DNA of 64,000 bases, taken from an uncultured Atopobiaceae bacterium (GTDB lineage Bacteria; Actinomycetota; Coriobacteriia; Coriobacteriales; Atopobiaceae). Where the stretch lies: NCBI GenBank assembly GCA_947625405.1, contig CANQOF010000003.1, positions 62,001 to 126,000 on the forward strand. The letters are read 5' to 3'. How positions within the stretch are numbered: the first letter of the stretch is position 1; each line of letters opens with the position of its first letter. Below, in pieces: positions 2 to 26,894 of this stretch. The notes beneath the pieces were generated by a model. It ran no database searches and had not been told where the DNA came from. It saw only the letters and a program-made list of their open reading frames with translations. A program made the translations under genes and the position numbers.

Positions 2-979
<978 letters not shown>

Positions 980-997
980 CCAAGAAAGGCCCAAGAG

Positions 998-3874: not shown

Positions 3875-4471
3875 TCAGTAGTCGAAGACGTAGTGGTCGT
3901 ACGCGTTGATCACCGTCGTGGGGCCGAGCTCGGTGCGCCTCGGGATCTTGTGGTCGTAGCTCTGGTGGATGTGGCCGTGCACGAAGTATTTTGGCTGGTA
4001 GCGAGCCAAAAGGTCGTTGAAGCACTCGAAGCCCATGTGGGTGTCGGAGTCGAAGTCGTTCACGCCGCGCGCGGGCGCGTGGGTGAGGAGGATGTCGATG
4101 CCCTTGGCCTTGCGGATCTTCCGCCGGAGCTTCCACGCGCGCCAGCGCATCTCCTTCTCCGTGTACATCGACTCGCAGAAATCCTTGTAGCGCACGCATC
4201 CGCCGAGCCCCGCGATGCGAAGCCCCGCCGCCTCCACCACGCGATCCTCCGCGCACTCGCAGCCGCCGGGAGGGTTTCGGATGAGGGCGTCGTCGTGGTT
4301 GCCGCGCACGTAGACGAGCGGCGCGCGCCCAAGCGTCACCAAGAACTCGAGGTACTCGGCGCTGAGGTCGCCGCAGGAGAGGATGAGGTCGAACTCATCC
4401 AAGCAGCCCGGACGGTAGTAGTCGTAGTAGGGCGCGGCGGGCACGTCCGCTATGGCGAGAATCCTCGTCAT
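3875..4471 (-). CDS. Metallophosphoesterase, YfcE/MPE-like
   Basis: This is a 198-residue cytoplasmic calcineurin-like phosphoesterase of unknown substrate. The family blocks are visible in order: an IAD motif with Asp9, SCGDL with Asp35, RGNHDD with Asn58-His59, LTHAPARG, and VHGHIHQ near the C-terminus. The first motif lacks the His of the usual DxH (it reads ADV); I recall this as normal for a subgroup of clostridial and coriobacterial members rather than a loss. The ATG overlaps the stop of the upstream BMP-family gene by 4 bp (ATGA), so translation is probably coupled and the two may work together. The substrate could be a nucleotide, but the sequence does not say. Confidence 0.85.
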   Translation of the reverse strand: MTRILAIADVPAAPYYDYYRPGCLDEFDLILSCGDLSAEYLEFLVTLGRAPLVYVRGNHDDALIRNPPGGCECAEDRVVEAAGLRIAGLGGCVRYKDFCESMYTEKEMRWRAWKLRRKIRKAKGIDILLTHAPARGVNDFDSDTHMGFECFNDLLARYQPKYFVHGHIHQSYDHKIPRRTELGPTTVINAYDHYVFDY

Positions 4472-6384
4472 CCCGCGAGCACCCCCGCGATGCCCACCGT
4501 GGCCTTCGCGTAATCGCTCAGCTCATCCCATGAGGGGATGGCGCCCACGACGTTTTCGTTCAGCCAGTCCATGTTGATGATCTGCCTCGCGGAGAGTGCC
4601 TCGTCGACTGGTATGATCTCTCGCCCTTCCTGCGCTTTGAGGGGGCCGCGGAAGGGCTTCAAGAGCCCCGCGCAGATGCCGCGCTCGAGCATCTTCGCGA
4701 GCTTCATCGTCGCGTCGGGGATCTCGCTGGAGTAGCGCATACCCACCACCCCCGCGCTCATACCCCAGAAGTAGTTCACCGCGCGGCTGGTGGTGTCGTA
4801 CTCGGTTTGCAGGGACCTGTCGCGGTTGCGGCGAATGAGCGTTTCGTAGTAGGCGCCCCAGTACCACATGGGCTGCGCGAGGTTCACCGCGCCGCCTTCG
4901 GTGAGGAGGGTGAGGCCGAAAGCGGCGCCGTCACGATCGGCGAGGCTCTTCTGGTCTTGCGAGGAGACGATCCAAATGCCCTCGTCGGTGAGGCGCTTCT
5001 CGGCCCCCGGCACTCCCTCGCTGTCTTTCAAGCTCGACCATTCGAGGCGGACCTTCGCGAAGGGATTCGCGCAGGCGACCCCGAGGGCAAAGCCGTTGAT
5101 GCCCGCCACCTGGCCGGGGATGGGGTAGTTGCAGATGTAGCCCACGTCGCTCGTGCCGGCGAGCGCTCCCGCGATGATGCCGGCGATGAACTTCGCCTCG
5201 TACATGCGCGGATAGTACGTGCGGATGTAGCGATGCTGCTGGTTGATCGAGCAGTTGAGGATCGTCGCCTTCGGGTGCTCCACCGCGGCGGTGAGGCTCG
5301 CGGGCAAGAGGCGCGGCGAGGTGGTGAAGATCATGGTGCAGCCGTCGGCGATGGCCTCTTCGATCACCGTGAGCGGGTTGCCGTCGAGCGCGTCGAAGTA
5401 CGCGCGAGTCTCGATGCCGTCCTGGAACACTTGCTGCACATACTCGCGCCCCAGTTCATGGCCGTACGTCCAGCCGGAGAGCTCGGGGGTCTCGTCGTGG
5501 ACGAAGGCCACCTTGAGGACCTTCGGGGAAGTCTTCAGGAACGGCACGCTGAGGCGCTTCGCGTCGCCCTCCTCCGGAGCGACCTTCACCTCGATAGGCT
5601 GGTCCTCCTCGATGAGGACGATCTCCTCCCAGATCTTCTCGAGGGAAATGCGAATCTGCGCGATCGTCTCGGTGCGAAGGGTCGCGTAGCCGAAGATCTC
5701 GAGGTAGGCGAGCATGGCGTCGCCGATCGTGGCGTCCACGTCCGCGCCCCCCTCAGCCTCGAAGGCCGCGCGGAACGAGTAGAACGCTCCCTCGAATTCC
5801 AGGCGGTCATCCTCCGTCCAGCGCGTGCCGGGCTTCTTGCCGAGGAGCTCTTGGATGCGAAGGTAGCCGCCAGGGCGGCTGAATTCGAGGTAGTTCACCC
5901 GCGTGTGGGCGTAGAACTCGAGGTACTCCTTGTAGATGGGGTGCTCGTCGAGATTCTTCGGCAGCACGCGGGTCACGTTCGCGTACACCGACGGCGAGCC
6001 GAAGTACTTGAGCACGCTCACGCGCTTATTGCCCTCTTCCACGTAGTAGCGGTTGAGGTACTCGTAGACCTTCACCGGGTCGCGGATGCCCTCGTCGAGG
6101 TGCGCCTCGCAGAGCCGCTCCCACTTGAGCGCAAACTCCGAGGTCTCGGGCATGAGCGGCATGTAGTTTCGCGCGAAGGCCGTCGTGCGCCCCACGGCGC
6201 GCGTGCCCACGATGTGCTCGGTGGGGATGTGCATGAGGCCGAGGTGCGCGCGCTGCACCATCTCCTCTTTGGAAACGAAATCGTCGAGCACGGGCAAATA
6301 GGGATACTGCCCCTTGCCCGTGTAGCGACGAAACGCACGCTGCCCGAGCTTGAGGGCACTGCGATAGTCGGAGGACTCCGCCAT
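4468..6384 (-). CDS. Cytoplasmic BMP-family (PnrA-like) binding protein with extra N-terminal region
   Basis: A 638-residue protein. From about residue 285 (LKVAFVHDETPELSGW) to about 540 it has the fold signature of basic membrane protein (BMP/PnrA) nucleoside-binding proteins, including the GYICNYPIPGQVAGINGFALG stretch. It has no signal peptide and no lipobox, so it cannot be an ordinary lipoprotein receptor. The first 230 residues carry a ParB-like segment (DPVKVYEYLNRYYVEEGNKRV) of a kind I recall in other cytoplasmic BMP proteins; that assignment is inference. It lies downstream of the DUF151 gene and overlaps the phosphoesterase gene by 4 bp. No permease or ATPase is adjacent. A cytoplasmic nucleoside or ligand sensor is possible. 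Confidence 0.75.
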   Translation of the reverse strand: MAESSDYRSALKLGQRAFRRYTGKGQYPYLPVLDDFVSKEEMVQRAHLGLMHIPTEHIVGTRAVGRTTAFARNYMPLMPETSEFALKWERLCEAHLDEGIRDPVKVYEYLNRYYVEEGNKRVSVLKYFGSPSVYANVTRVLPKNLDEHPIYKEYLEFYAHTRVNYLEFSRPGGYLRIQELLGKKPGTRWTEDDRLEFEGAFYSFRAAFEAEGGADVDATIGDAMLAYLEIFGYATLRTETIAQIRISLEKIWEEIVLIEEDQPIEVKVAPEEGDAKRLSVPFLKTSPKVLKVAFVHDETPELSGWTYGHELGREYVQQVFQDGIETRAYFDALDGNPLTVIEEAIADGCTMIFTTSPRLLPASLTAAVEHPKATILNCSINQQHRYIRTYYPRMYEAKFIAGIIAGALAGTSDVGYICNYPIPGQVAGINGFALGVACANPFAKVRLEWSSLKDSEGVPGAEKRLTDEGIWIVSSQDQKSLADRDGAAFGLTLLTEGGAVNLAQPMWYWGAYYETLIRRNRDRSLQTEYDTTSRAVNYFWGMSAGVVGMRYSSEIPDATMKLAKMLERGICAGLLKPFRGPLKAQEGREIIPVDEALSARQIINMDWLNENVVGAIPSWDELSDYAKATVGIAGVLAG

Positions 6385-9017: not shown

Positions 9018-10039
9018 ACCGCACGGCGAACATCACCCGCGCAACCGCGCCCACGCGTGAGGCTTCGACTCAGCCTCGGCCGACGCCGCGAGAGATCCGG
9101 AAGGTCTCGCGTGCCGCGACTCGCGCCGAGAAAGACCTCACGCGGGCGCTCGTGATGGAGATGCGCGCCGAAGAGCGGGCAAAGGCCCGGCCGAGCGCGC
9201 GTGCGTATCGCGCACACGATCGCGCGCGGCGAGCCCGCGCGAAAGCCGAAACGCGCCAGCTTGCCATGGCCGCCGAGGCCGAGCGCTTCGCCCAGGCCCA
9301 CGGCCTTTCCCTCGAGCCAAACGGCGAGTTCTTTCCGCAGGTGGCGCATCTCAATCCCGAGCCGAGCGAGGAAACGGACCGGCGCCGGCGCGCGTTCTAT
9401 CGCGCGGTCGTCCCCATCCTCCGCGCGGTCGTGCGGCTCACGTACGGCGCGCACGTGGTGCACGACGGGCCGAGCAAAACGCCCGCGGGAAGCGTCGTGG
9501 TGATCAACCACGTGAGCTACCTCGATAGCGTGATGGCGGCGGTGGCACTCTGGCCGCATCGCCTGCGCTTTCTCGCGCTCGCGAGCAACGGCTACGGGCA
9601 CGTGTGGGGGCCGCTCGTGCGGGCGCTCGGCACGATCTTCGTGGGCCACACGCTCGCCGAGACCCGAGAGATGATGGCGCGCCAGGAAGAGGCGCTCGCC
9701 GCGGGCGACGACCTCGCGATCTTCCCCGAGGGCGATCTCATCCCCTACAACCCCGAGCTCCAGCCCTTCAAGCGCGGCGCGTTCCAGATCGCGGCTACGC
9801 ACCACGCGCCCGTGGTGCCCGTGACGCTCGTGCAGGCGCCGGGCGAGGGCATCCTGAAGAGCCTTCTCGCGAAGCCGGGATTCGTGGTGCACGTGGGCGA
9901 GCCCATCTACGCGCCCGAGGGCATGGGCACGCATAAGGCGGCTCTCTACCTGCAAGAACACGCACAGCGGGCGATGCAAGCAGCCCTAGAGACGGATCCT
10001 CTCTTTGATCTCACCTACGCCGATGCTGCGGCACTCTGA
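9014..10039 (+). CDS. plsC: 1-acyl-sn-glycerol-3-phosphate acyltransferase family protein
   Basis: A 341-residue protein of the PlsC/AGPAT family. The catalytic H-x4-D motif is in INHVSYLDS, the second block is around GTIFVGHT, FPEGDLIPYN is the glycerol-phosphate-binding motif, and PVVPVTLVQAP is the last block. The first 115 residues are a basic Arg/Ala-rich extension beyond the usual 210-250-residue enzyme. The GTG start overlaps the glycosyltransferase stop, so both are translated together and probably act in membrane phospholipid or glycolipid synthesis. The last three codons and stop lie inside a 27-bp repeat that recurs 148 bp downstream, so the C-terminus may come from a repeat insertion. 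Confidence 0.85.
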   Translation: MNRTANITRATAPTREASTQPRPTPREIRKVSRAATRAEKDLTRALVMEMRAEERAKARPSARAYRAHDRARRARAKAETRQLAMAAEAERFAQAHGLSLEPNGEFFPQVAHLNPEPSEETDRRRRAFYRAVVPILRAVVRLTYGAHVVHDGPSKTPAGSVVVINHVSYLDSVMAAVALWPHRLRFLALASNGYGHVWGPLVRALGTIFVGHTLAETREMMARQEEALAAGDDLAIFPEGDLIPYNPELQPFKRGAFQIAATHHAPVVPVTLVQAPGEGILKSLLAKPGFVVHVGEPIYAPEGMGTHKAALYLQEHAQRAMQAALETDPLFDLTYADAAAL

Positions 10040-10054
10040 TGCACCCGATCTGCG
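10028..10054 (+). repeat. 27-bp direct repeat, copy 1 (overlaps plsC stop)
   Basis: Begins GCGGCACTCTGATGCACCC and is identical to 10176-10202. It supplies the last Ala-Ala-Leu codons and the TGA of the acyltransferase gene. Confidence 0.85.
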
Positions 10055-10057
10055 CGC

Positions 10058-10102
10058 GATTTTGGCTACTTACGTAGCGAAGTACGCTACGTAGCCAAAA
10101 TC
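10058..10102. repeat. Large palindromic hairpin between the two 27-bp repeats
   Basis: GATTTTGGCTAC (10058-10069) pairs with GTAGCCAAAATC (10091-10102). The stem continues with GTAGC/GCTAC after a 4-nt bulge, giving 17 pairs and a short loop. It may terminate the plsC transcript or be part of a mobile repeat. Confidence 0.8.
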
Positions 10103-10175
10103 CCCCGCATCTCGGGCACCTCAGAGCGCCTCGCTGACGTTTCGCGGATCCCCTGACTCTTCGCCTGTTGCGAGG

Positions 10176-10202
10176 GCGGCACTCTGATGCACCCGATCTG
10201 CG
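10176..10202 (+). repeat. 27-bp direct repeat, copy 2
   Basis: Exact copy of 10028-10054, followed by another short hairpin-like stretch (GTGCGTCGGTTTTTGCAC). It lies in the 398-bp gap between plsC and the surface-protein island; no gene is seen in that gap. Confidence 0.85.
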
Positions 10203-10321
10203 AGGTGCGTCGGTTTTTGCACATTGGAGCCGTTTCGGGGCGCGAATCCATGAGTTCCACAAGGGCGTGGAGCACTCGTGATGAAGAATAAAGTACGAGC
10301 TAGAGGGCCTTTTCTTAAAGA

Positions 10322-10350
10322 CTTTTCAGGTAAACTTCCAAGTTGAAAAG
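10322..10350. promoter_or_regulatory. AT-rich palindrome upstream of the protease operon
   Basis: CTTTTCA (10322-10328) and TGAAAAG (10344-10350) enclose AACTT-CC-AAGTT. This nested dyad lies in an unusually AT-rich patch about 90 bp before the first gene of the island and could be an operator. It is unlike a coding or terminator sequence, since no T run follows. Confidence 0.4.
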
Positions 10351-10437
10351 ACTATGCCGTTTGCCCGCGGGAGCGTCCTCGGGCAGGGCGTCGCTTTGCT
10401 TCGGCACGAGGGGGAGGGCCAAAGGCCCAGCTAGAAC

Positions 10438-10905
10438 ATGGTGAAGGTGCGTGAACATCGCACGGCGTGGCTCATCGCCGCGGGGGTGGCCGCTCTCGCG
10501 GTGGTCATCGCCGTCGTGTGGGGCGCGTCCGCCATGCCCGGCACCTCGAGCGCTCCGATGAACGCGGCGCCGGGCGCCACGAGTGCCGAGGGGACGAGCC
10601 TGCCCGACGCGGCCACGACCGGATTGGACGACGACACCGCCATGCAGGAGCAGGAAGTGACGGAGTACGTGCCGAACGAGGTCCTCGTGAACATCGAGGA
10701 TCCCGCCCTGCTGGAGACGCTCGTGCCAGGGGCGGAGCTTGCGGGCGGCACGATCGTCTCCGTCGAGAAGGTCACGGAGAGCGACGACGGCACGGGCGTC
10801 GTGAAGGTCACGTTCGAGGGAGACGCGACCGAGGACGACGTCGTGAGCGCGCTTGGCAAGATGGGCGCGAGCGCTCAGAAGAACTTTGTCTATCACCTGA
10901 TGTAG
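10438..10905 (+). CDS. Secreted stand-alone subtilase propeptide-like protein
   Basis: A 155-residue protein with an N-terminal membrane segment (about residues 10-31), a Pro/Ala/Ser-rich spacer, and a C-terminal domain (about 72-155). That domain matches the propeptide of the subtilase at 21946. Shared features are the LAGGTIVSVEKV and LAGATVEDVQIV strands, the helix before the end, and an ending of AQKNFVYHLM against AQPNFVYHLL. The protein stops exactly where a propeptide would be cut. It lies 21 bp upstream of the giant subtilase gene, which lacks this domain. Subtilase propeptides (I9 type) act as folding helpers and inhibitors, so a trans-acting chaperone/inhibitor is inferred. The start lacks a clear ribosome binding site; a TAG lies two codons upstream. 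Confidence 0.8.
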   Translation: MVKVREHRTAWLIAAGVAALAVVIAVVWGASAMPGTSSAPMNAAPGATSAEGTSLPDAATTGLDDDTAMQEQEVTEYVPNEVLVNIEDPALLETLVPGAELAGGTIVSVEKVTESDDGTGVVKVTFEGDATEDDVVSALGKMGASAQKNFVYHLM

Positions 10906-10926
10906 AGAGCCATTGGGGAGAGATCG

Positions 10927-13900
10927 ATGAACACGAAACCGACGCTTGCCCAGAAGATCTTCGTCGCCTTCATGACGGCGTCGATGGTGCTCGGCATGTG
11001 CCCGTTGCAAGCCATCGCCGACGAGCTCTACGGCCACGAGGACGCCATCACGCTCGAAAACGACGACGTGACGATCGTGGACGGGGAACCAATCCTCGGC
11101 GCGACCGAAGACGAGGTCGCCGAGCTCGGCGAGCCCTCTGGCGATTCCGCCGCGAGCGACGAGGCCGCTTCCGTGGAGGACACGGCCATCTCCACCATGA
11201 GCACCCTGGCCACGCAGGCAAAGGGCCCCGAGAACATCAGCGTCGACGGCACCGAGGGCTCCGACTGGGTCTACGACGAGGCGAGTGACACCATCACCAT
11301 CAAGAGGGGCGGGCACTATAAGATCTCGCGTCCCCGCACGTGGAGCCCCAACCACACCACGCTCATCATCAACGCCAACTCCGACGTGACGATCGACCTC
11401 ACCAACGTCGACCTCGACGCGCGCACCCTCACGGACGAGGAAGCGAAGCGCCTGCTCTTCATCGACGGCGAAGACGGCAAGAAGAAGTGGAACCCCTCGC
11501 AGGCCTACGCGCAGGCGATGGAGGACGAGGACCTCAAGGCGAAGGTCACCGCCCAAGGCCGCGCGGGCATCGAAATCTCCAAGGACATGAAGTACCCGGT
11601 GACCCTCAACCTCGAATCCCTTGCGGACAACAAGGGCACCGAGCAGAACATCCATATTTACGGCGGCAACTACCGCGCGGGCATCGAGAAGAACAATGCC
11701 GCGCAGCTCACCATCAACCTCAAGGGCCGCGTAAATGTCTACGCCGGCCTCGGCAACTACGATAAGCGCTCCGGCGCCGCCGCCATCGGCAGCGTCGATG
11801 GCAAGGACGTGAGCAACATCAAGATCGTCGGCAACGTCGACATGAAGAACCCCGGCAACCTCAACGCGGGGACGACTACGGAGATCATCCCCCAGTCGAA
11901 CGACTTCGGCGCGGCCATCGGCTCCGGCTCGCACGCGAACGTGACCAACCTTGAGATCACGGGCCCCGACTACGACTACTACGACGAAAGCCAAAGCGCG
12001 ATGTTCACCAACGTGAAGGGCACGTCGTGCCAAGGCTCCGCCATCGGCGCGGGCTACATGTCCACGGGCAAGAGCAGCGTCACCATCAAAGGCGGCGCGG
12101 TCAACGCGATGACGTATGGCTACCAGGCGCTCGGCTCGGCGGTGGGCGTCTCCGTCCACTACCTCGAAAGCGAGATCACGAAAAAGCCCGCCTATGGCCA
12201 GGCGTATTGCGACGTGAAGCTCGAGGACGGCTTCCTCAATCCGCAGTCCTACATGGGTCCGGGCATCGTGTGCGGCGATCAGGGCACCTACACGCAGGTG
12301 GACGGCATCGTGCATGTGGACGGCGGCTACATGTCCGACTTCTTCAACTTCGAGACGCGCGATAACGCCATCGGTCTCTATGCCAAGAAGGTGGACATCG
12401 GCTCGGGAATGAGCGACGAGGCGATCAAGCAGGGTCGCGACTGGGCGGGCTACGTGAGCGCCGACACCTCGTTTGGCATCGTGGCGCTCGAATCCATGAC
12501 CTTCCACAAGGGCATGATGAACGTCTTCGGCTCGAACTACACCAACAAGGTGAAGAACGCGCAGGGCATCTACACCAAATCTCTCATAGTGGAAGGCGGA
12601 GACCTCTACTCCAACTCCGGCATCCTCCTCGAAAAGGGTGGCGAGCTGAAGCAGACGGCGGGCATCCTCACCTCCATCGGCGCGCGCAGCACCGACCTCG
12701 GCGGCCTCCTCGACCCCGAGAACCACGAGGAAGACACCCCGCAGAAGGCCGCCATCGGCGTGGAGCCGGGAGGCGGGGCGACCATCAGCATCACCAACGG
12801 CGCGAAGTGCGAGACGCTCGGCGGCTTCGACGCGGGAAGCGGCACGATCACCATCGACGGGGGCAACACCTACGTCCGCGCCATCACGGGCCAGCTCGTG
12901 GGCGCGAAGAACGAGTCGATCAACCTCGACGGCTTCAACGCGAGCAAGATCAACATCAACAACGGCAAGGTCATCGGCTTCGTGGCGAGCACCGGCAACG
13001 ACGTGCGCCCGAGCTCGCTCGAGGGCGACTCCGACCACTTCGGCGTGGACGTGCGCAAGCTCGAGCGCCAGTCGGTGGTGGCGGAAGGCGAGACGGGCGA
13101 GGACGTGGTCGTAGCCGAGCCGCGCACCGCGCGAGACGACGCCTCGGCGAAGACGACGAGCTCGAAGGCTACGACCATGGCGGAGGACGCCACCGCCTTC
13201 GCCATCCAGCCGACAATCGCCACCAGCGGCTACGTGCACGCCATCAGCGCCTCCAAGAGCTCGTCGGGCCCCACGAGCATCGTGCAGGACAACGACGACC
13301 TCACCCAGTACAAGTGGGTCGAGATCGGCCCGGAGCTCACCATCAGCCCCTATAGCGGAAAAGAGGTGACGGTCCCGCTTAGCCAGAGGACGGCGAGTTT
13401 CAAGGCCACTACGAGCCCCTCAAACGCACTCGTCGTCTACACCTCCTCCGACCCCGAGGTGCTCTCATTCGAGAACGAGAACGTGGGCACGGCCACGCTC
13501 CACCACGCGGGGCAGGTGGACGTCACGGCGTCGCCCGCCGGCAACTACCTGGGCAAATCCCAGAGCATCCACGTGATCATCACGAAGGCAGAGCTCACCG
13601 AGGGCACGATCGAGATCGCCGACTGGACCTTCGGCGAGCCGGGCAACACCCCGAAGTTCACCTCGAAGGCGCTCGATGCCGAGGATTACGACATCACCTA
13701 CGACTGGGCGCCCAAGGCGAGGGCGGATGAAGAGGACGCCTATCAATCTTGGGATGAGGTGAAGCCGACGGCCGCCGGCACCTACGTGGCGAGGGCGCAC
13801 GTGCCCGCCTCCGCGGACTTCAGTGCCTCGGCCATCTCGAAGGACTTCGAGATCAAGAAGGCGGCGGGCACCATCACGATGCCGCACGGCGGCACCTCGT

Positions 13901-16900
13901 TCAACGTGGCAAAGAACCAAGAAAACCGGATCACCGTCCTTGTGAAGGGCGATGGCGATCTCACGGCGACGAACTACGACTCCAATGTGGTGAGCGTCGC
14001 GCTCGCGGCGCAGGGTGGCCACACCAACGGCCAGAAGAACGGCACCAACGTGTGGGTTGTCACGGTGACCCCGAAGGAGGGCGCCACTGCGACGAGCGCG
14101 CAGATGACACTCCACCTCGACGCGTGCGATAACTTCACGGAATCCACCTCCAAGCCGATCACGCTGAACCTCGTCGACAACGTGCAGGGCGTCGACAAGC
14201 CCGCGGCCATCACGGACGCGGGCAAGCTCATGTACGACGGCACGCCGAAGGTGGGCTACAACACGAAGAACGCCGCGGGCCACGTGCATATCTCCGGCGA
14301 TCTCGAGGCGACGGAGCCCGGCACCTACACGACGATCTTCAAGCTCGACCCCGGCTATAAGTGGAACCAGGGTGGCGGCACGGAGGACGTGGAAGTCAAG
14401 TGGACGATCACGCCGAAATCGCTCGATAGCTGCGATTACTCCGTCGTGAAGCTCATCGAGAACAGGCAGGAAGTTCCCTATCGCTATTCCGGCGAAGAAA
14501 TCACCCCGAAGGTCGTCCTCTCCTACACGCCCGCGAAGGCGTCCAAGGTGGAGCTCGTCGAGGGCGTGGACTACGAGATCGAGGGCTACGACAACAATGT
14601 GACGCCGGGAACGGCGTACATCAAGGTAAAGGCCGTCGAGGGCAGCGCACACTACACGGGCAACGCGCGCATCTCCTTCCAGATCGAGCAGGCGCGCTTC
14701 AGGTTGTGCCCGAGCCCGAGCAGCAACGAACTCGTCTACAACGGCGAGGCGCAGGTCCCCGACTACATCTTCTACAACGAGGTGTCGGGCAAGCAGCTCG
14801 AGCTGGGCAAGGACTACCGAAAAGTCGTCACGAACCCGAACACCGTCGAGGCGAAGCCCAGGGGCGAGAACGGCAGGTGGGAACTCTACCGCGACAACCT
14901 CTACTTCGAGGGCATGGGGTACTACACCAGCGACAAAGTGACCGTGAACTACGCCATCAAGCCCGCCGAGATGAAAGACCTCATCATCCAAGGCGTGAAG
15001 GCCACGAAGCTCGTGAACGGGAGCGCCACGCCGAAAATCACAGTCGTGAACGATGACGGCATCACGATCCCCGAGACCGATTACACCGTCACCTACGCCG
15101 ACAACCACACGACGGGCACGGGATCCATCATCGTCAAGGGCAGCGGCAAGAACGTGACGGGCGAGAAGACGGTCACGTTCCAGATCTACGACGACTCGAA
15201 CGCCCCACAGGTGATCGGCAAGCCCGCCGAAAACGCCAAGGGCCGCGCGCTCTCCTACAACGGGCAGGAGCAGTGCTACGTGGAGCCGGGCACGGGCTAC
15301 ACGCTCTCCGGCACGTGGAAGGCGACGGAGCCCGGCGAGTACGTGGCATGGGCGACCCCGAACGCCGGCTACATGTGGAATGAGGATGGCGACACCTCCC
15401 CCCAGCGCTATACGTGGTCGATCGAGCGCATCGACCTCAGCAAGGCAAAGCTCGAGGGTATCCAAGACAAGGTCCCCTACGTGGAGCCCGTCCTCGATAG
15501 CAAGGGGAACACGCCGGGCATCACGCAGAACGTGAAGGTCACCTACGACGGCTACACGCTCAGCAACGAGGACTACTACGTCACCTACGAGAACAACATG
15601 GGAGTGGGCACCGCGACCCTCACCGTACGGCCCACGGCGGACTACGACGTCGACGGCAAGTTTGGCAAAGAAGAGCGCTACAACCGCCACGTGAGGAACA
15701 CGCAGAGCGCGAAATTCGAGATCGTGCGCGGGAACGCCTCCGTGAGCTCGAGCATCTACACCTCGGTGCAGATCAAAGACGGGCGCCTCCTCAAGGGCGA
15801 GTTGCCCATCTCCGTGAAGGCCGACGGCACCATCACCGTGACCTCAGACGACGCGTCGATCGCCACGGGCGTCGTTATCGATCCAAAGGATTCGCAGGTG
15901 GCCTCGGGCAAGGCGCAAGCGCTCACCGCGCTGAACCTCTCCGCGCTGGACATCGGGATCGGCGAGGATCGCACGAACAAGATCGTGCAGATCACCCCGA
16001 AGCGCCGCGGCACGACCACGCTGCACGTGCTGGTGGGCAATGACGGGGTGAATTACGGTGAGGCGAGCCAGACCATCTACGTCAACGTGTACGAGACGGT
16101 AGGCGGCCAGAAGCTCGTCGACAAGCCCATCGGGCTGAACCTGCCCTACACCGGCGGGTCTCAGGTGGGCGTGGCCTACGACGCCGAGGGCGTCGAGCTC
16201 GTGAGCGATTACTCGGGCGTCGCGCCAAACACCTACACGGCCATCGTGAAGCCCAAGAAGGGCTACGTGTGGAGCGACACGAAGGGCACGGAGGAGAAGG
16301 AGGTCCCGTGGTCCATCGTGGCGCCGACCTCGCATCTCCTTGCCGCAGTTGACGAGAACGGATCGCTCATCACCACGAGCCTCGACGAGGCGATCGACCT
16401 CACCCAGTACAACCTCGCCGAGGTGAGGAAGCCGAAAGAGTACCGCTTCACCTATCAGGCCGAAAGCGAGCTCGAGGTGTCGTGCGACACCTCCGGCGTG
16501 GTGGAGCTAAGCGGGCAGACCCTCACGAAGGATCCGACGGACAGCTTCTACCACCTGAGCGTGACGCCCAAGAAGGTGGGCTCGACCCTCATCACCGTCA
16601 AGGCGAAGAGCTACGAATCGGACGACATCCAGCCGATGATCAGCTTCTACGCCACGGTCTTCGAGGGTGATGTGAGCTCGAAGAGCGTGACGGTGCCCGA
16701 GGCGACCTTCTCCTACACCGGAAGCGAGCACGTGGGCATTCCCGCGAGCGAGAGCTATACGCTCGAGGGGCCGTCGGTGGTGAAGAGCGTGGAGGACGGC
16801 GAGAGCGCGGTGCGCAACGTCGGGGCCTCCGTGGGCGTGAACGCGGGAACGTACTACGTGAAGGTCACACCGAACGAGGGCTACACATGGGCGGGCTCCC

Positions 16901-19900
16901 AGGGCCGCGAGACCCGTACGGTGGCGTGGACCATCACGCCCGCGAATCTCGCGAGTGCCACCATCACCGACCTCGACACCTTCGTCGCCGATGGCGAAAC
17001 CATGTTCTATCAGGAGAACCTCAAGGTGCTCTACCAGGGCAACGAGGTGAACCCGGCGGAGTACGTCGTGAGCTACGACGGAGACCAGAAGTCCCCGTCC
17101 TCCGACACCGTCACGCAGAAGGTGATCGTGACCGCGGCCGAAAACCGCAACTTCACCGACTCTAAAGAGCAGGCCTACACCATCACCGACCCCGACGCCG
17201 CATCGGGCGCGGCTACGCAAGTGATGGCTGTCTCCGGAACGCAGGAGATGGGCGCGCAATCCGTGGCCGCTGCGAGCGAGAGCGGGAGCGCGACGATCAT
17301 GGCCGATGACGCCATGACGAACGACTCACTGCTGAGCGAGCAGTACTACCTCGGCCCGTACGTGGATAACTCGGGCTCGTTCGCGGGCACCGGCACGAGC
17401 ACCACCACGGGGACGACCGGCACCACAACGAGTGAACCCCACGTGAAGACCGCCTCCGGCGCGAACCTCTTCGAGGCATGGAAGGCGGTGGCCGACAAGC
17501 TCGAGAATGGCCAGCGCGAGAAGGTGACGGTGGCCGTCATCGACACGGGTTGCCTCATGAACCACCCCGACCTCGTGCCCAACCTCGAGAGCGATCTTGC
17601 GAAGGACACCTACCACGACAACTACCCCGTGGGCGCGAACTACATGGAGGACTCCGTCGGCCACGGCACGCACGTGGCGGGCATCATCGCCGCCGTCGCC
17701 AACAACGAAGAGGGTGTCGCCGGCGCCTCGTACAACTGCAAGGTGCTGCCAATCCGCTCGTTCGACGACTACGGCTACACCACGAGCGAGGACCTCTACC
17801 AAGCCTTCGAGTACATCGAGAAGCTCATCAATGAGGGCCACACCGACATCAAGGTCATTAACATGAGCCTTGGCGGCTACGACTGGGAGACGGAGCCCGA
17901 GTCAAACGACCAACTGCTCCTGAAGAAGATCGAGACTCTGCGCAATGAGCACGACGTGCTCACGATCGCGGCGGGCGGTAACGGCGACGCGAACGGCACG
18001 CCGATCACGGCGCCCTGCTTCCCGAGCGACTTCCCGAACGTGCTCTCCGTGACCTCGCTGAACCGCTACGGCGCGGACTCCTCGTGGTCTGATTACAACA
18101 TCTATAAGGACGTGAGCGCGCCGGGCGAGGAGATCGTCTCCACGTACCTCACGAAGGACTACGCGTCGCTTTCCGGCACCTCCATGGCGACGCCGCTCGT
18201 CTCGGGTATCGCCGCGCTGCTCTACTCCGTGGAGCCCGGCGCCTCGGCAACCGACATCGAGAACGCCATCGTCACTTCCGGCCACAAGATCGAGAACCGC
18301 GGCAGGCGCACGCAGGCCATGAACACGCGCCACCTGAGCGGAAACACCGTCGACGGCACTGCGGTCTACGGCCAGCCCGTGCTCGCGGTGGACGCGTTCG
18401 AGGCGTGGAAGGCGCTCGAGGCGCAATACGGCGAGGCCCAATACTTCATGGGCGAGTGCACGGTCGGGAACATTCCCGTCCAGCTCTACACGGGAAGCGC
18501 GATCGAGCCGAAGCCCACGGTGACGAACAAGGACGGTACGGTCGTCGACCCGAGCCAGTACGAGATCACCTACGAGAACAACACCAAGGTCGGCACGGCG
18601 ACGATCGTGATCACTGGCGTGAAGGGCCAGTCGGGTGACACCACGCACGTCTATCGCGGCACCATCCGCAAGTCCTTCGAGATCAAGTACGATCTCGCCT
18701 CCAAGAGCGCGATCGCGTTCGTCGAGGCGCCCACCTCCGGCACGAGCGGCGCGACCGAGCTGCAGCCGAAGGTCACCTACGAGGGCAAGGTGCTCACGCC
18801 CGGGCGCGACTACACGATCGAATACCTGGAAAGCACCGAGGCGGGCACTCCACAGGTGGTCGTCAAGGGCAAGGGCGACTACGAGGGCACGCTCACGAGC
18901 AACTACAAGGCGGGCGCGGGCGGCACGGTGCAGGTGCCCACTCCCGCGCAAAACCTCGTCTACAACGGCCAGGAGCAGATCGGCGTGCCCGAGAGCCCGA
19001 ACTACACCATCACGAGCAATACCGGACGCGACGCGAAGACCTACACCGCGCACCTCACGCTCAAGGGGGACGCGACGTGGTCCGACAACTCGAAAGGAGC
19101 GAAGGACATCCAATGGACGATCGCTCCCGCGACGCCGAAGCTCTCCGCCTCGCCCTCGACGATCGCCCTCAATCTCGGGGGTTCGAGGTCTCGCGAGGTC
19201 ACGGTTTCCTACGGCGGCACGGGCACGCTCAGCGTGGAGACGAGTAGCGAAGACGTGGCCAGCGTGAGCACCGTGGCGAACGGCAAGTTCACCGTCACCG
19301 CCGGCACGAAAACGGGCTCCACCACCATCACGGTGAAGGCCACCGCCGGCATGAACTACACGGAGGCCTCGCTCCCGATCCAGGTCTTCGTGGAGGGTGC
19401 GGAAGTCGACCCCACGAGCTCCCTGCCGAATGAAACCATCAAACTCGATTACGCGAGCCAAGACCTCACCGCGGTGCTCGCGGGCGACGGCTACGTGCTC
19501 TCCGATCCCAGCGATGGGGCGAGGATCGAGGACGGCAACCTCATCGTGCGCGAGGTGGGCGACTACACCGTCAAGGCGACGCCGGTGGATTACGCGAACT
19601 ACGGCACGGGCGCCCTCGCCTCCGAGGCGCTCGGGGCAGACGGCGCGAAGACGATCACCGTCCAGGTGCAGCCCATCAAGGCGGAGCGCCTCACCATCAC
19701 GCCCGTCACGGGCCAGGTCTACACCGGAAGCGCACTCACGCCGCCCCTTGCGGTCACGTTCAAGAAGGGCATGGCGCAGCTTGAGGCCGGCAAGGATTAC
19801 AAGGCGACCTACACCAAGAACGTGAACGCCGGCACGGCCGAGGTGGCCCTCGACTTCGCGGGTCTCTCCAAGGCGTACGACGGCACTCGCACGGTGAAGT

Positions 19901-21765
19901 TCACCATCGACAAGGCGCAAAGCTCACTGCAAACGCTCGAGCCCATCACGATCGACCTCTCGAAGATGACGGACGGAACGCAGACCTTCCCCGTCTCCTA
20001 CCGCGACCCCGCTGAGCTCACGCTTGATGCGAGCGGGGTGAGCGATTTTGCCACCGTGACGCTCGGGAAGACGGGCGAAGGCAACGCCTACGAGCTCAAG
20101 GTCACCCCGAAGAACCTGCCAGGAGCAGGCGCGATCACCATCACGGCCCCAGGGGATGAAAACCACTATGGCAACTCGATCACAGCCGCCTTCGCCGTCG
20201 TCCAAGACACGGCGGAGGAACCCGTGGTGGCAACGGATCTCTCCTACACGGGCGCGGCGCAGACGGGCGTGAAGACGGGCAAGGGTTATAAGCTCGAGAT
20301 CAACGCGGGTAGCGAGTCCGCGGGTGCGGAGCTCGACAGCCAAGGCAACGCGGTGGCCACGAACGCGGGCGCGTACAAGGTGACCGCGAAGCTCGATCGC
20401 GGTTTTGGCTGGCCCGACAAGTCGAGCGGGGACAAGCAGCTCTCCTTCACCATCAGCAAGGCGCCCTCGGCGATCACGCTCAGCCACATCTCTCTCTCGA
20501 ACAACACGCTCTCGCTGAAGACCACGAGCGCCGCGACGAACGTGAAAGTGGAGGCGCTTGGCAAGGTGTGGATCGACGCGACGCAAACCGATCTCCAAGA
20601 CGTGGTGAGCGCCGAGGTCGTGGAGGTCGACGGAGCGTTTGAGCTTCAGATCTCCGCGCCGAGCAAGACCGGTACGGCGAAGATCGTGCTCCTGAGCGAA
20701 GGCGACGACAATCACAGCGGCGCGACCGCGACGCTCACCGTGAGCGTCACCTCGCCGTCCACCGGTGGTGGCGGTGGTGGTGGCTCCGCGGGCGGCGGCG
20801 GGGGTGGCAGCGTGCCGACGCCGCCCACGCCTCCGGTGGAGGAGTCGACTGAGGCCGAGGAAGTCCAGCAAGAGGTGGCTTCCGGCAGCACGGTGGACGA
20901 GGTGAACAAGCAGGCGGGCGACGTGGCGACCGTCACGGCGACCAAGGAAACCGGCTCCACCGAGGAAGACAACGCGAACGTCACCTGGACGATCGCGATC
21001 GCCGACGCGGAAGCCCCCACGCAAGACGTGGCCAAGGGCCCCGTGGCGGGCATCGTGAACGCGCTCCAGAAGTCGAAGGCGCAGAAGGCCACGCTTGTCG
21101 GCAACAGCGCGATCTCCATCAACCTCGATTTCGCCTCGCAGCAGGCGATCGAGAGCTTCTGCCAGAAGTGCGTGGACGCGGCGCTCAAGGCCGCGCGGTC
21201 GATGGCGAACGAGGACGAGGAGGTGGCCGAGGATCTCGCCGGCACCTCCTTCAAGCTCGAGATCAGCTGCTCCGACGGCTCAAGCGCCATCCACACGTTC
21301 CGCTTCACGGCGCCCGGCGTGGTGCCCGCGGGAAGCGTCGCGGTCTATCGCCTCTACAACCAGTGGAGCTATGAGCACCTCTACACGACCAAGGAGGACG
21401 AGAAGAACGAGCTCGTCGGCATTGGTTGGACGTACGAGAACGTGGCGTGGTACGCGCCCGAAAGCGGGATCGGCGTCTACCGCCTCTACAACCCCTACAG
21501 CTACGACCACTACTACACGAAGAACAAGAGTGAAGCCGACGGGCTCGTGGATCTCGGCTGGCAGTGGGATAACAATGCCAACCCCATCTTCTACAGCGTG
21601 GCGAACGGGACGAATCCGGTCTACCAGCTCTTCAACCCCTACGAGATAAAGGGCACGCACTTCTGGACCCCGGACGTCAACGAATATCGCAACTGCCAAG
21701 ACCAAGGGTGGAAAGGCGAAAACGCCGTCTTCTTTGCGACGGCGATTCCGGAAACCGCGAAGTAA
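10927..21765 (+). CDS. Giant secreted beta-helix/Ig-like/subtilase (S8) surface protein
   Basis: A 3612-residue exported protein. A signal peptide (MNTKPTLAQKIFVAFMTA..., cut near AIA-DE, residue 32) is followed by a right-handed beta-helix-like region (about 95-700, with AAIGSG/SAIGAG turns). Next come many Ig-like YTG/DYxVxYxNN repeats (about 790-2110). A peptidase S8 domain at about 2190-2460 has Asp2206 (VIDTG), His2246 (GHGTHVAG), Asn2352 and Ser2419 (GTSMATP), and looks active. More Ig-like repeats, a Gly-rich linker (about 3277-3295), a domain with FCQKC shared with the next gene, and three RLYN/FNPY-type repeats (3470-3612) complete it. No LPXTG is present. No propeptide precedes the S8 domain; one is encoded by the gene upstream. 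GGGGAGAG is the ribosome binding site. Confidence 0.9.
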   Translation: MNTKPTLAQKIFVAFMTASMVLGMCPLQAIADELYGHEDAITLENDDVTIVDGEPILGATEDEVAELGEPSGDSAASDEAASVEDTAISTMSTLATQAKGPENISVDGTEGSDWVYDEASDTITIKRGGHYKISRPRTWSPNHTTLIINANSDVTIDLTNVDLDARTLTDEEAKRLLFIDGEDGKKKWNPSQAYAQAMEDEDLKAKVTAQGRAGIEISKDMKYPVTLNLESLADNKGTEQNIHIYGGNYRAGIEKNNAAQLTINLKGRVNVYAGLGNYDKRSGAAAIGSVDGKDVSNIKIVGNVDMKNPGNLNAGTTTEIIPQSNDFGAAIGSGSHANVTNLEITGPDYDYYDESQSAMFTNVKGTSCQGSAIGAGYMSTGKSSVTIKGGAVNAMTYGYQALGSAVGVSVHYLESEITKKPAYGQAYCDVKLEDGFLNPQSYMGPGIVCGDQGTYTQVDGIVHVDGGYMSDFFNFETRDNAIGLYAKKVDIGSGMSDEAIKQGRDWAGYVSADTSFGIVALESMTFHKGMMNVFGSNYTNKVKNAQGIYTKSLIVEGGDLYSNSGILLEKGGELKQTAGILTSIGARSTDLGGLLDPENHEEDTPQKAAIGVEPGGGATISITNGAKCETLGGFDAGSGTITIDGGNTYVRAITGQLVGAKNESINLDGFNASKININNGKVIGFVASTGNDVRPSSLEGDSDHFGVDVRKLERQSVVAEGETGEDVVVAEPRTARDDASAKTTSSKATTMAEDATAFAIQPTIATSGYVHAISASKSSSGPTSIVQDNDDLTQYKWVEIGPELTISPYSGKEVTVPLSQRTASFKATTSPSNALVVYTSSDPEVLSFENENVGTATLHHAGQVDVTASPAGNYLGKSQSIHVIITKAELTEGTIEIADWTFGEPGNTPKFTSKALDAEDYDITYDWAPKARADEEDAYQSWDEVKPTAAGTYVARAHVPASADFSASAISKDFEIKKAAGTITMPHGGTSFNVAKNQENRITVLVKGDGDLTATNYDSNVVSVALAAQGGHTNGQKNGTNVWVVTVTPKEGATATSAQMTLHLDACDNFTESTSKPITLNLVDNVQGVDKPAAITDAGKLMYDGTPKVGYNTKNAAGHVHISGDLEATEPGTYTTIFKLDPGYKWNQGGGTEDVEVKWTITPKSLDSCDYSVVKLIENRQEVPYRYSGEEITPKVVLSYTPAKASKVELVEGVDYEIEGYDNNVTPGTAYIKVKAVEGSAHYTGNARISFQIEQARFRLCPSPSSNELVYNGEAQVPDYIFYNEVSGKQLELGKDYRKVVTNPNTVEAKPRGENGRWELYRDNLYFEGMGYYTSDKVTVNYAIKPAEMKDLIIQGVKATKLVNGSATPKITVVNDDGITIPETDYTVTYADNHTTGTGSIIVKGSGKNVTGEKTVTFQIYDDSNAPQVIGKPAENAKGRALSYNGQEQCYVEPGTGYTLSGTWKATEPGEYVAWATPNAGYMWNEDGDTSPQRYTWSIERIDLSKAKLEGIQDKVPYVEPVLDSKGNTPGITQNVKVTYDGYTLSNEDYYVTYENNMGVGTATLTVRPTADYDVDGKFGKEERYNRHVRNTQSAKFEIVRGNASVSSSIYTSVQIKDGRLLKGELPISVKADGTITVTSDDASIATGVVIDPKDSQVASGKAQALTALNLSALDIGIGEDRTNKIVQITPKRRGTTTLHVLVGNDGVNYGEASQTIYVNVYETVGGQKLVDKPIGLNLPYTGGSQVGVAYDAEGVELVSDYSGVAPNTYTAIVKPKKGYVWSDTKGTEEKEVPWSIVAPTSHLLAAVDENGSLITTSLDEAIDLTQYNLAEVRKPKEYRFTYQAESELEVSCDTSGVVELSGQTLTKDPTDSFYHLSVTPKKVGSTLITVKAKSYESDDIQPMISFYATVFEGDVSSKSVTVPEATFSYTGSEHVGIPASESYTLEGPSVVKSVEDGESAVRNVGASVGVNAGTYYVKVTPNEGYTWAGSQGRETRTVAWTITPANLASATITDLDTFVADGETMFYQENLKVLYQGNEVNPAEYVVSYDGDQKSPSSDTVTQKVIVTAAENRNFTDSKEQAYTITDPDAASGAATQVMAVSGTQEMGAQSVAAASESGSATIMADDAMTNDSLLSEQYYLGPYVDNSGSFAGTGTSTTTGTTGTTTSEPHVKTASGANLFEAWKAVADKLENGQREKVTVAVIDTGCLMNHPDLVPNLESDLAKDTYHDNYPVGANYMEDSVGHGTHVAGIIAAVANNEEGVAGASYNCKVLPIRSFDDYGYTTSEDLYQAFEYIEKLINEGHTDIKVINMSLGGYDWETEPESNDQLLLKKIETLRNEHDVLTIAAGGNGDANGTPITAPCFPSDFPNVLSVTSLNRYGADSSWSDYNIYKDVSAPGEEIVSTYLTKDYASLSGTSMATPLVSGIAALLYSVEPGASATDIENAIVTSGHKIENRGRRTQAMNTRHLSGNTVDGTAVYGQPVLAVDAFEAWKALEAQYGEAQYFMGECTVGNIPVQLYTGSAIEPKPTVTNKDGTVVDPSQYEITYENNTKVGTATIVITGVKGQSGDTTHVYRGTIRKSFEIKYDLASKSAIAFVEAPTSGTSGATELQPKVTYEGKVLTPGRDYTIEYLESTEAGTPQVVVKGKGDYEGTLTSNYKAGAGGTVQVPTPAQNLVYNGQEQIGVPESPNYTITSNTGRDAKTYTAHLTLKGDATWSDNSKGAKDIQWTIAPATPKLSASPSTIALNLGGSRSREVTVSYGGTGTLSVETSSEDVASVSTVANGKFTVTAGTKTGSTTITVKATAGMNYTEASLPIQVFVEGAEVDPTSSLPNETIKLDYASQDLTAVLAGDGYVLSDPSDGARIEDGNLIVREVGDYTVKATPVDYANYGTGALASEALGADGAKTITVQVQPIKAERLTITPVTGQVYTGSALTPPLAVTFKKGMAQLEAGKDYKATYTKNVNAGTAEVALDFAGLSKAYDGTRTVKFTIDKAQSSLQTLEPITIDLSKMTDGTQTFPVSYRDPAELTLDASGVSDFATVTLGKTGEGNAYELKVTPKNLPGAGAITITAPGDENHYGNSITAAFAVVQDTAEEPVVATDLSYTGAAQTGVKTGKGYKLEINAGSESAGAELDSQGNAVATNAGAYKVTAKLDRGFGWPDKSSGDKQLSFTISKAPSAITLSHISLSNNTLSLKTTSAATNVKVEALGKVWIDATQTDLQDVVSAEVVEVDGAFELQISAPSKTGTAKIVLLSEGDDNHSGATATLTVSVTSPSTGGGGGGGSAGGGGGGSVPTPPTPPVEESTEAEEVQQEVASGSTVDEVNKQAGDVATVTATKETGSTEEDNANVTWTIAIADAEAPTQDVAKGPVAGIVNALQKSKAQKATLVGNSAISINLDFASQQAIESFCQKCVDAALKAARSMANEDEEVAEDLAGTSFKLEISCSDGSSAIHTFRFTAPGVVPAGSVAVYRLYNQWSYEHLYTTKEDEKNELVGIGWTYENVAWYAPESGIGVYRLYNPYSYDHYYTKNKSEADGLVDLGWQWDNNANPIFYSVANGTNPVYQLFNPYEIKGTHFWTPDVNEYRNCQDQGWKGENAVFFATAIPETAK

Positions 21766-21945: not shown

Positions 21946-24900
21946 ATGCTCCTTCGGGATGTGAAATCCTCGCGCACGCGGCGCCGCACGACGCTCCTCG
22001 CCGCCTGCGCCGCGGCCCTCGCCGCACTCGCGCTCGGCATCGCGTTCACGGCCGAGCCCGCCGATCTTTCGGCCTCGCTTCCGGATGCCGCGTATCCCCA
22101 GGCGGCGCTCCTCGACGAACAGGCCACTGCGCCTCCGTCTGATCCCGCGAATATCGCGAGCTCAGAGGCCTCGGACATGCCGGACACAAACCCCGATGCC
22201 CCGTACTACGACGCCGAGGGACACCTCATCGAAGACGAGCAAATCGTGGGCGACGTGATCGTGACGGCCGAGCCTGGCGAGGCGCTTCCCGAGGAGGGGA
22301 GCACGCTCGCGGGCGCCACGGTGGAAGACGTGCAGATCGTCGCGGACGCCGGCAGCGAGACCGTCGCCAAGCTCACCATCTCCGACGGCGAGGCCACGGA
22401 CGCCGCGATGGCCGAGCTCGAGGCCGCGGGCCTCGAAGCGCAGCCGAACTTCGTCTACCACCTGCTCGACGACGTCGAAGCGTCGCCCTCGTCCGAGCAA
22501 GCCGAAGCCGCGGACGTGGACGTGCGGTACAAAACGAATGACCCGTTGTTTGACGAAGCCTCGAACTCCTATCACCTCTATCCCTACGAAGCCAATGAAA
22601 GCGGCTACCGTGGCGCGAACCTGATCGGCGCGTGGGATGTGGCGCGCGCGGATGACGAGGTGCTCGTGGCCACCATCGACACGGGGTGCTATGTGGATCA
22701 CCCCGACCTCAAGGGCCGCATCGATCTCGAGCACATGACCGACGTCTACTACAACCCCACGAATCCGAAGCCAGGGACGATGTCTGACGTCCATGGCCAT
22801 GGCACGCACGTAGCGGGCATCATCGCGGCCACCGCAGACAACGGCATCGGTGCCGCGGGCACGAGCTACAACGCCAAGGTGCTTCCCATCAAGGTGTTTG
22901 ATAGTCGCGGAGGTGGCTCCACTTCCACCGACAAGATGGTGGCCGCCTATACCTACCTCGACACCTATCTCGAAGCGGGCGAGCTCGAGAATTTGCACGT
23001 GATCAACATGAGCCTCGGCGGATACGGCACGAAGTCGAAGGATGACGAGGCGCTCGAGAGGCAAATCATCCACTTCAAGGATGTCCACCGCATCCTCACT
23101 GTGTGCGCGGGCGGCAATGGCGACGACTACGGCAAGCCGCTCACGCAGGCTTCCTATCCGTCCGATTTCGACGCGTGCCTGTCGGTGACCGCGCTCTCGA
23201 AGTCCGGCAATGACATGTACTGGTCCGACTACAACCAGGCGAAGGACATCTCCGCGCCTGGCGAGAAGATCTACTCCACCTATAACGACGGGAGCTATGC
23301 GAATCTCTCGGGTACGTCGATGGCCTCCCCGCTCGTAGCGGGCATCACCTCGATACTCTTCGCCGAGGTAGACGGCATCACGCCTGACGAGGTCATCACC
23401 ATCGTGAAGGCCACCGCCAAGCAGATCCCCGTGGAGGGAAACCACGTAGTGCGCCAAGGGGAGACCGGGAGCGCGGGCGCGATCGACGCCGAGGCGGCCC
23501 TCAAGAAGGCGCTGGTAGATCATAAGATCGTTGAGGGCATGGACCATTTCATCTCCGCGGACGAGGTGAGCGTCGCCGGAAGCGATCGCGTGGAATACGA
23601 CGGAACGCACAAAGAGCCCGAGGTGACCGTCGTGCACGATGGCACGCAGCTCGTGCGAGACAAGGACTACACCGTCGAATACAAGAAAAACGTGAAGCCT
23701 GGGCAGGCAACCGTCACCGTGCGTGGTATCAAGGGCTACGGTGGCTACATCGACAAGCACTTCACGATCTGGATCGACGAGAACGACCGCATCCCCATTA
23801 CCCTGGATACCATCGCCGTCACCGGTATCCCCGAGAGCGTGGTGTACGCGTGTGCGTACTTCACGCCAGAGCCGACGATCCGACAGAGCGGCCAAGACCT
23901 CGTCCTCGGCGAGGACTACACGCTTTCCTACGAGAACAACAAGGACGCGAGCCACGAAAACGACGCGAAGGTCATCATCAAGGGGATTGGCGTCTACACC
24001 GGGGAGCGCGAAGAGCATTTCCGAATCGAGCAGGCGGATGGTTGGCTGAGCCTTGATTCCCAAGTGCACCACGAGACGATCAACCTCGTGGGCGCGGGAG
24101 ATGCCTACGAGGAGCACATCTTTTCATCGCCCGAGATGAAATACAAAGTTTCGACCAGTGCCCCTGGCGTGGCGACCGCTGAATGCGTCTCGCAGTACCA
24201 GAACCTTGCAAAGTTCTACTACAACTTCATCCGCATCACCCCGCATGGCGCGGGCGATGCGCAGCTTACCCTCGAGGTGGAGCCGTCAGGGAACTACAAG
24301 CCGGTGGATCCGATTGTGATCAAGGTGCACGTGCGCAACCCGAACACCGACCTCTCGAGCGCAACGATTGAGGACATTCCGCCTCAGCACTACACCGGAA
24401 GCATCATCAAGCCCACGCCCGCCGTGAGGATCGGTGACACGATTCTCCAGGAAGGGCGTGATTTCACCTACTCCTACTCGAATGCAGTCAGCGCGGGTAC
24501 GGGGTACGTGAGTGCGAACGGCATCGGCGACTACACCGGAAGGGCGGTGAAGAGCTTCACCATTCTTCCCGCCGATGCGCGTCTCACGGTAACCCCCGCA
24601 AAACTGGAACTCGGCAAGGGCGGCAGCGCCTCCGCGAGCATCTCCTATCAGGGCCAGGAGGGCATGATCCCCTTGATCAATGCCACGAATCTGAACCCCG
24701 AGGTTGCGACGATCGACTATACGACGGGCTACCCGCATCAGATCTCCGTGACGGCGAAGGAGGCCGGCACCGCCGTGGTGAAGCTTCATGCGTATGCCAC
24801 GTCGAACTTTGGCAGCGCCGATGCGACGCTTGTGGTGGTGGTTGAAGGCGGTGTGGTGGAGGTCGGATCCGTGGCCGTCGAACCGAGTGACGTCTCGCTC

Positions 24901-26737: not shown

Positions 26738-26767
26738 TTGCGGGATGCCGCTCGCGTTGCCTACACT
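26738..26767 (+). promoter_or_regulatory. Candidate promoter for the third surface-protein gene
   Basis: TTGCGG (26738-26743) and TACACT (26762-26767) are 18 bp apart, 127 bp before the GTG start. The 230-bp gap is otherwise empty of genes. Confidence 0.4.
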
Positions 26768-26894
26768 GCGCATATTCCAAAGAGCGTGTCGGGGCGAAAA
26801 GAGCCTCGGCACGCGAGTGCTCGCGGAGCTGGGCGGTTTTCCGCGGTGCTCGTCGCAAGACCCATATCCCAAACGCTCCAAGAGAGGAGCACCA

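Follow-up and report, generated by a model that had tools for sequence, protein, structure and literature searches.

What is the function of a small gene that resembles a subtilase propeptide and lies directly ahead of a giant subtilase? The stretch of DNA analysed here (the window) comprises 64 kb of contig C3 from a genome of 1.72 Mb, and contains three consecutive genes on the forward strand that encode proteins of 155, 3612 and 1572 amino acids. The small gene (10438..10905) is followed by the gene for the giant subtilase (10927..21765) and by that for a second subtilase, P0003 (21946..26664), which has its own fused propeptide (22231-22467) and an S8 domain at 22654-23424. The stop codon of the small gene and the ATG of the giant are separated by a spacer of 21 nt (10906..10926), in which GGGGAG, ahead of the ATG, forms a ribosome binding site for the giant gene. 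A promoter scan of 9950-11100 gave no candidate, and a single terminator-like site ahead of the small gene is no more than expected by chance.

Subtilase propeptides are textbook intramolecular chaperones: they guide folding and then inhibit via C-terminal residues that are laid into the active site. We consider it likely that the small gene encodes such a propeptide acting in trans, as a membrane-anchored folding helper and inhibitor of the giant.

Propeptide domain of the small protein

The C-terminal domain of the small protein was originally predicted to correspond to the propeptide of P0003, and both sequence and profile comparisons bear this out. BLASTP aligns the two at 42% over 59 amino acids (E = 3e-6), with the ends NFVYHLM and NFVYHLL, and a profile of five small orthologues aligns with a profile of 13 fused propeptides over 82 columns, reaching as far as the cleavage end (probability 99.2, E = 6.8e-20). 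The best Pfam match of the small protein is PF22148 (Fervidolysin_NPro-like), at 15.8 bits and thus below the cut-off of 21; its orthologues score between 12.9 and 17.1 bits, and 37 of the 47 propeptide-family sequences match this entry, the best at 4e-13. Inhibitor I9 (PF05922), the family named in the original prediction, is not matched by the small protein at E ≤ 1 and by only one of its 47 relatives (E = 0.098). In the Pfam comparison the nearest domains are PF22148-type prodomains, and the assignment to Inhibitor_I9 does not hold.

The structure of the small protein alone is predicted by AlphaFold2 to have the topology of a propeptide, with β-strands at residues 75-86, 104-114, 120-128 and 145-152 and helices at residues 89-93 and 132-141. 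These elements lie in the C-terminal block that ends at the stop codon (10657..10902), which is also delimited by the alignments and for which the pLDDT is mostly 81-88. A fold search of the PDB with this model returned generic ferredoxin-like matches only (best E = 0.028), and the sole match from sequence searches of the PDB is a weak one to a subtilase chain (9rk9_A, E = 0.004). The block is preceded by a variable acidic linker rich in Ala, Ser, Thr, Glu and Asp (residues 31-73, 10528..10656), as seen from comparison of the orthologues, with a pLDDT below 50. In four orthologues this linker spans 47-49 residues and is net acidic by 8-11. Residues 12-30 (10471..10527) form a hydrophobic segment with a 19-residue Kyte-Doolittle mean of 2.55, and three other complete orthologues have a similar segment. 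As far as can be judged from sequence, this N-terminus may be either a membrane anchor or a cleaved signal peptide.

The C-terminal tail QKNFVYHLM (10876..10902) is found in all five orthologues as QKNF[VI]Y[HR]LM-stop in identical register, and its end would coincide with the cut point of the fused propeptides. Gln147, Asn149 and Tyr152 are near-invariant throughout the family (62 relatives). They may occupy the helix-capping and P4 positions of the BPN' propeptide, a register that we infer from anchoring at the C-terminus, since the direct comparison with the BPN' propeptide is not significant. The position between Gln147 and Asn149 (residue 148; 10879-10881) is Lys or Arg in 6/6 standalone sequences and corresponds to the Pro of a QPN motif in 55 of the 56 fused propeptides; the single exception is a His, in the fused sequence that is sister to the small clade. 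The Fisher p-value for this contrast of ∼1e-7 is an overstatement, because the standalone sequences represent only two independent lineages.

The giant subtilase and a counterpart with a fused propeptide

The S8 catalytic domain of the giant extends over residues 2198-2452 (17518..18282) and is matched by PF00082 with 165.7 bits (cut-off 21.8, E = 1.9e-48). The triad is complete, as predicted, with Asp2206, His2246 and Ser2419 in place together with the oxyanion Asn2352. The chain ends with a DUF5648 domain (PF18885, E = 1.4e-32; 21343..21738). The original prediction also held that this protease lacks a propeptide, and indeed none is detected in the window giant by Pfam, BLASTP or two purpose-built HMMs; the possibility of a propeptide hidden elsewhere in the chain was rejected on the same grounds. 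The HMM of the propeptide family has no match in the giants of four genomes either (the giant of G005 being cut at its C-terminal end). As the same HMM recovers both positive controls, the propeptides of P0003 (5.6e-25) and of the G251 giant (1.3e-11), the absence is genuine at this level of sensitivity.

The second of these controls comes from an uncultured Eggerthellaceae genome of the same MAG series (G251), the giant of which is collinear with that of the window (27% over residues 4-2088 and 43% over residues 2132-2994). The BLASTP alignment breaks at residues 2088/2132 of the window giant and 2109/2280 of the G251 giant. In this gap the G251 giant has its propeptide (residues 2155-2245), while the window giant has a short linker (residues 2089-2131, 17191..17319). 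A second subtilase adjoins the G251 giant, as in the window. In a tree of the catalytic domains the giants pair with the G251 giant (88/90) and the downstream enzymes with the G251 downstream enzyme (100/99), and hence the two loci are syntenic. No standalone propeptide is found in the G251 genome (92% complete), nor in the 258 nt of contig ahead of its giant. The small gene thus accompanies giants without a propeptide and is absent where the giant carries one in cis, which by the logic of a Rosetta-stone fusion argues for a functional link between the two.

In both loci a large open reading frame follows the two subtilase genes (26745-30164 in the window, 1139 amino acids; L066:14558-17998 in G251, at least 1147 amino acids). 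The window protein has Ig-like-looking repeats, terminal repeats that resemble the DUF5648 end of the subtilases, and no protease domain; possibly it is a substrate or a partner.

Other giants were not found among the remaining genomes surveyed (397 in the order, 398 in the class), and in the GTDB contig collection they occur in these lineages only. A survey of the 397 genomes of the order with the propeptide profile gave about 160 matches, nearly all of them inside long subtilase frames. The short-frame matches to PF22148 elsewhere in the phylum were read individually: three are cut by contig ends, two are frameshifted, one is degenerate and one is a real standalone prodomain, lipoprotein-like and with no subtilase as its neighbour. 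These surveys show no wide occurrence of the small gene without a subtilase partner, a finding that favours the original prediction.

Two standalone sequences other than the small gene deserve mention. One genome of the same phylum (G563; L120, oriented 3933-4526) encodes a lipoprotein-like protein (LIIGGC) of 197 residues with a PF22148 prodomain at its end, and no subtilase was seen within the following 5 kb. Independently of the small gene, a genome of the same family (G018; L061:3320-4519, the same frame being present at L062:9345-10544) encodes another standalone propeptide. It has a lipoprotein-like N-terminus (GLAVGCSS) and ends in ...SAQRNHVLHTMG-stop, it adjoins a cluster of subtilases with their own propeptides and it groups with the propeptide of its neighbour (93/91).

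Conservation and recombination of the gene pair

The small gene is a separate open reading frame in five of the six genomes of the genus. A giant follows it in all five at a spacing of 21, 19, 20, 19 and 21 nt, and each of these giants starts with a hydrophobic N-terminus and is preceded by a purine-rich ribosome binding site of its own. All five loci come from MAGs, with the G004 contig stopping just past the start of the giant and the G005 contig within it. The sixth genome (G002, 96% complete) contains neither gene. The two-gene order is thus conserved wherever the small gene occurs.

In the window the small gene and the giant share one frame, but the spacings in the orthologues lead to three different relative frames. 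Together with the separate ribosome binding site of the giant, this agrees with the earlier view that the pair is not a simple nonsense break. As the relative frames vary between species, readthrough, a frameshift between the two genes and a recent stop are all rejected, and a recent nonsense split is likewise incompatible with conservation of the pair in five divergent genomes. The small orthologues diverge down to 44% identity while their frame is kept open and their final residues and stop position stay the same. The domain has a pN/pS of 0.12-0.28 over 0.28-0.42, and in nearly every pair it is lower for the domain than for the N-terminal part.

Those records that contain a giant and bear a name (L070-L073) all belong to one MAG series ('Lapin') and to two families, Atopobiaceae and Eggerthellaceae. 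Three of the five genomes with the small gene are uncultured Atopobiaceae MAGs of this series, the name of which (French for rabbit) we read as rabbit gut. This suggests that the locus has spread within one gut habitat across two bacterial families.

The window locus is a mosaic, in which the small gene and residues 1-90 of the giant (10438-11200) are closest to G001 and G003, residues about 105-3000 (about 11240-19900) are closest to G005 (compare L022, L024 and L025) and the last 250 residues are again fairly close to G001 and G003 (G005 is cut there). This suggests repeated recombination among giant-protease loci, and it is the reason that the small-gene tree and the catalytic-domain tree disagree. 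In a recombinant locus of this kind strict one-to-one co-evolution is not seen; either the partnership of the small protein and the giant can accommodate swaps of this kind, or it is less tight than assumed. Among fused propeptides, the closest to the small domain is that of the G251 downstream enzyme (84/87) and not that of a giant, and residues 8-174 of P0003 match the small profile over its full length. On the basis of these two sequence relationships, the small gene probably arose by partial duplication of a downstream-type subtilase gene.

A probable propeptide acting in trans and its precedents

After export, the small protein would be held at or near the membrane by its hydrophobic N-terminus and flexible acidic linker, and from there it would bind the internal catalytic domain of the giant, following the logic of the CspB prodomain in trans. 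Its C-terminus is ready-made, ending where the matching stretch of the fused propeptides ends, such that no cut in the giant would be needed. As about 2200 residues precede the catalytic domain in the giant, such a cleavage would have to be internal, and a propeptide on its own chain would make it unnecessary. The original prediction that the small protein folds or controls the giant in trans is supported in this form; binding, chaperone or inhibitor activity, location and release are what we infer. Several points weigh against a propeptide in trans. A propeptide is dispensable for the folding of some subtilases. In the window, the giant body stems from another lineage than the small gene and giant residues 1-90, and the closest fused relative of the small domain belongs to a downstream-type enzyme and not to a giant. 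The loci number no more than five, all of them in MAGs and two of them cut by contig ends.

A membrane-anchored inhibitor would account for part of these observations. It would shield the producer from its own exported subtilases or time their release, with folding being independent of it and with the giant, the downstream subtilase or both as the target. The hydrophobic N-terminus would keep such a protein at the cell, the lipoprotein-like standalone propeptide of G018 adjoins subtilases that have their own propeptides and the standalone propeptide-like proteins that are known are inhibitors (PMC6993865). The other subtilases with an inhibitor as partner nevertheless retain the cis propeptide that is missing from the giant, and no standalone gene accompanies the sole giant that carries its propeptide in cis. 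This pattern indicates that a cis function was replaced rather than that an inhibitor was added, and we regard the inhibitor as improbable.

The kinship with the downstream-type enzyme, combined with the separation of the small gene and the giant body by recombination, could also mean that the true partner is P0003 or another subtilase of the cell and that the position ahead of the giant is incidental. P0003 retains a complete propeptide of its own, however, the same downstream subtilase occurs in G251, where the small gene is missing, and within the genus a genome has either both the small gene and the giant or neither of them, which makes such a partnership very improbable. The end-to-end alignment with P0003 and the grouping with the G251 downstream propeptide would equally suit a functionless relic, in which case a subtilase gene would have been duplicated and its 5' end would have remained after insertion of the giant or loss of the giant's propeptide. 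Against this stand the frame that has remained open in five genomes, the constant last residues and stop position and the pN/pS of the domain, and we hold a relic to be very improbable. Returning to the propeptide in trans, an extension of it is conceivable, although unlikely: the small gene and the signal region of the giant may form an exchangeable module, in which one membrane-bound trans-propeptide serves different recombined giant bodies. If true, the separation of helper and protease would let a surface protease diversify while folding and safety control are kept.

The locus offers natural cis and trans versions of one giant protease that can be compared in gut bacteria. Such a comparison addresses the need for tethering of the propeptide, its specificity and the maturation of a protease domain that lies far within a long polypeptide. 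The locus also serves as a warning that the propeptide of a subtilase may be encoded by an adjacent gene when none is annotated in the protease itself.

Separate or membrane-attached partners of secreted enzymes are known from several systems. The lipase-specific foldase Lif is a membrane-based steric chaperone for a secreted enzyme and belongs to the functional class of subtilisin propeptides, but enzyme and chaperone are unrelated to the proteins described here and the working principle alone is alike (PMC3352829). CspB of Clostridium regains its fold when the prodomain is provided in trans, with the C-terminal residues of the prodomain blocking the active site; unlike in the window pair, this prodomain is naturally part of the same polypeptide (PMC3567191). 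The dentilisin operon prcB-prcA-prtP of Treponema denticola has the gene for a small membrane-attached protein ahead of the subtilase that needs it, although PrtP has its own propeptide (residues 19-158) and no homologues of PrcB are reported beyond the oral treponemes (PMC8167434). The standalone propeptide-like inhibitors comprise SUB1-ProM of Plasmodium, TgMIC5, Pleurotus ostreatus proteinase A inhibitor 1 and yeast proteinase B inhibitor (PMC6993865). Like the small gene, SUB1-ProM is a separate propeptide-like gene that adjoins subtilase genes, yet SUB1 keeps its own propeptide and SUB1-ProM is an added inhibitor, whereas the window giant has no propeptide at all (PMC6993865). A target that retains its cis propeptide is thus found in the G018 case and not in the window.

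The closest precedent is the subtilase ASP of Aeromonas sobria, and the trans-helper arrangement is therefore already known in bacteria. ASP is propeptide-deficient and relies on an external chaperone, ORF2, that is encoded by the next gene, the C-terminus of which reaches the catalytic site; ORF2 is required for maturation and inhibits the enzyme with an IC50 of 84 nM (PMC5638518). ASP has been named as an exception in lacking a propeptide (PMC9549277). It shares with the window pair a protease without its own propeptide and a small partner in the adjacent gene, with the roles of the ASP partner being established by experiment. The two systems differ in that ORF2 lies downstream of ASP and the small gene upstream of the giant, and in that the kexin-type P domain of ASP is not detected by Pfam in the window giant. 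The ORF_2_N domain of ORF2 (PF18492) has no match in the six genomes of the genus at E ≤ 10. Unlike ORF2, the partner in the window comes from the propeptide family of the subtilase itself and probably has a membrane anchor, and the same giant is also known in a cis version. To the bacterial case of ASP and ORF2 the window pair would thus add a trans version that is homologous to the cis propeptide rather than unrelated to it.
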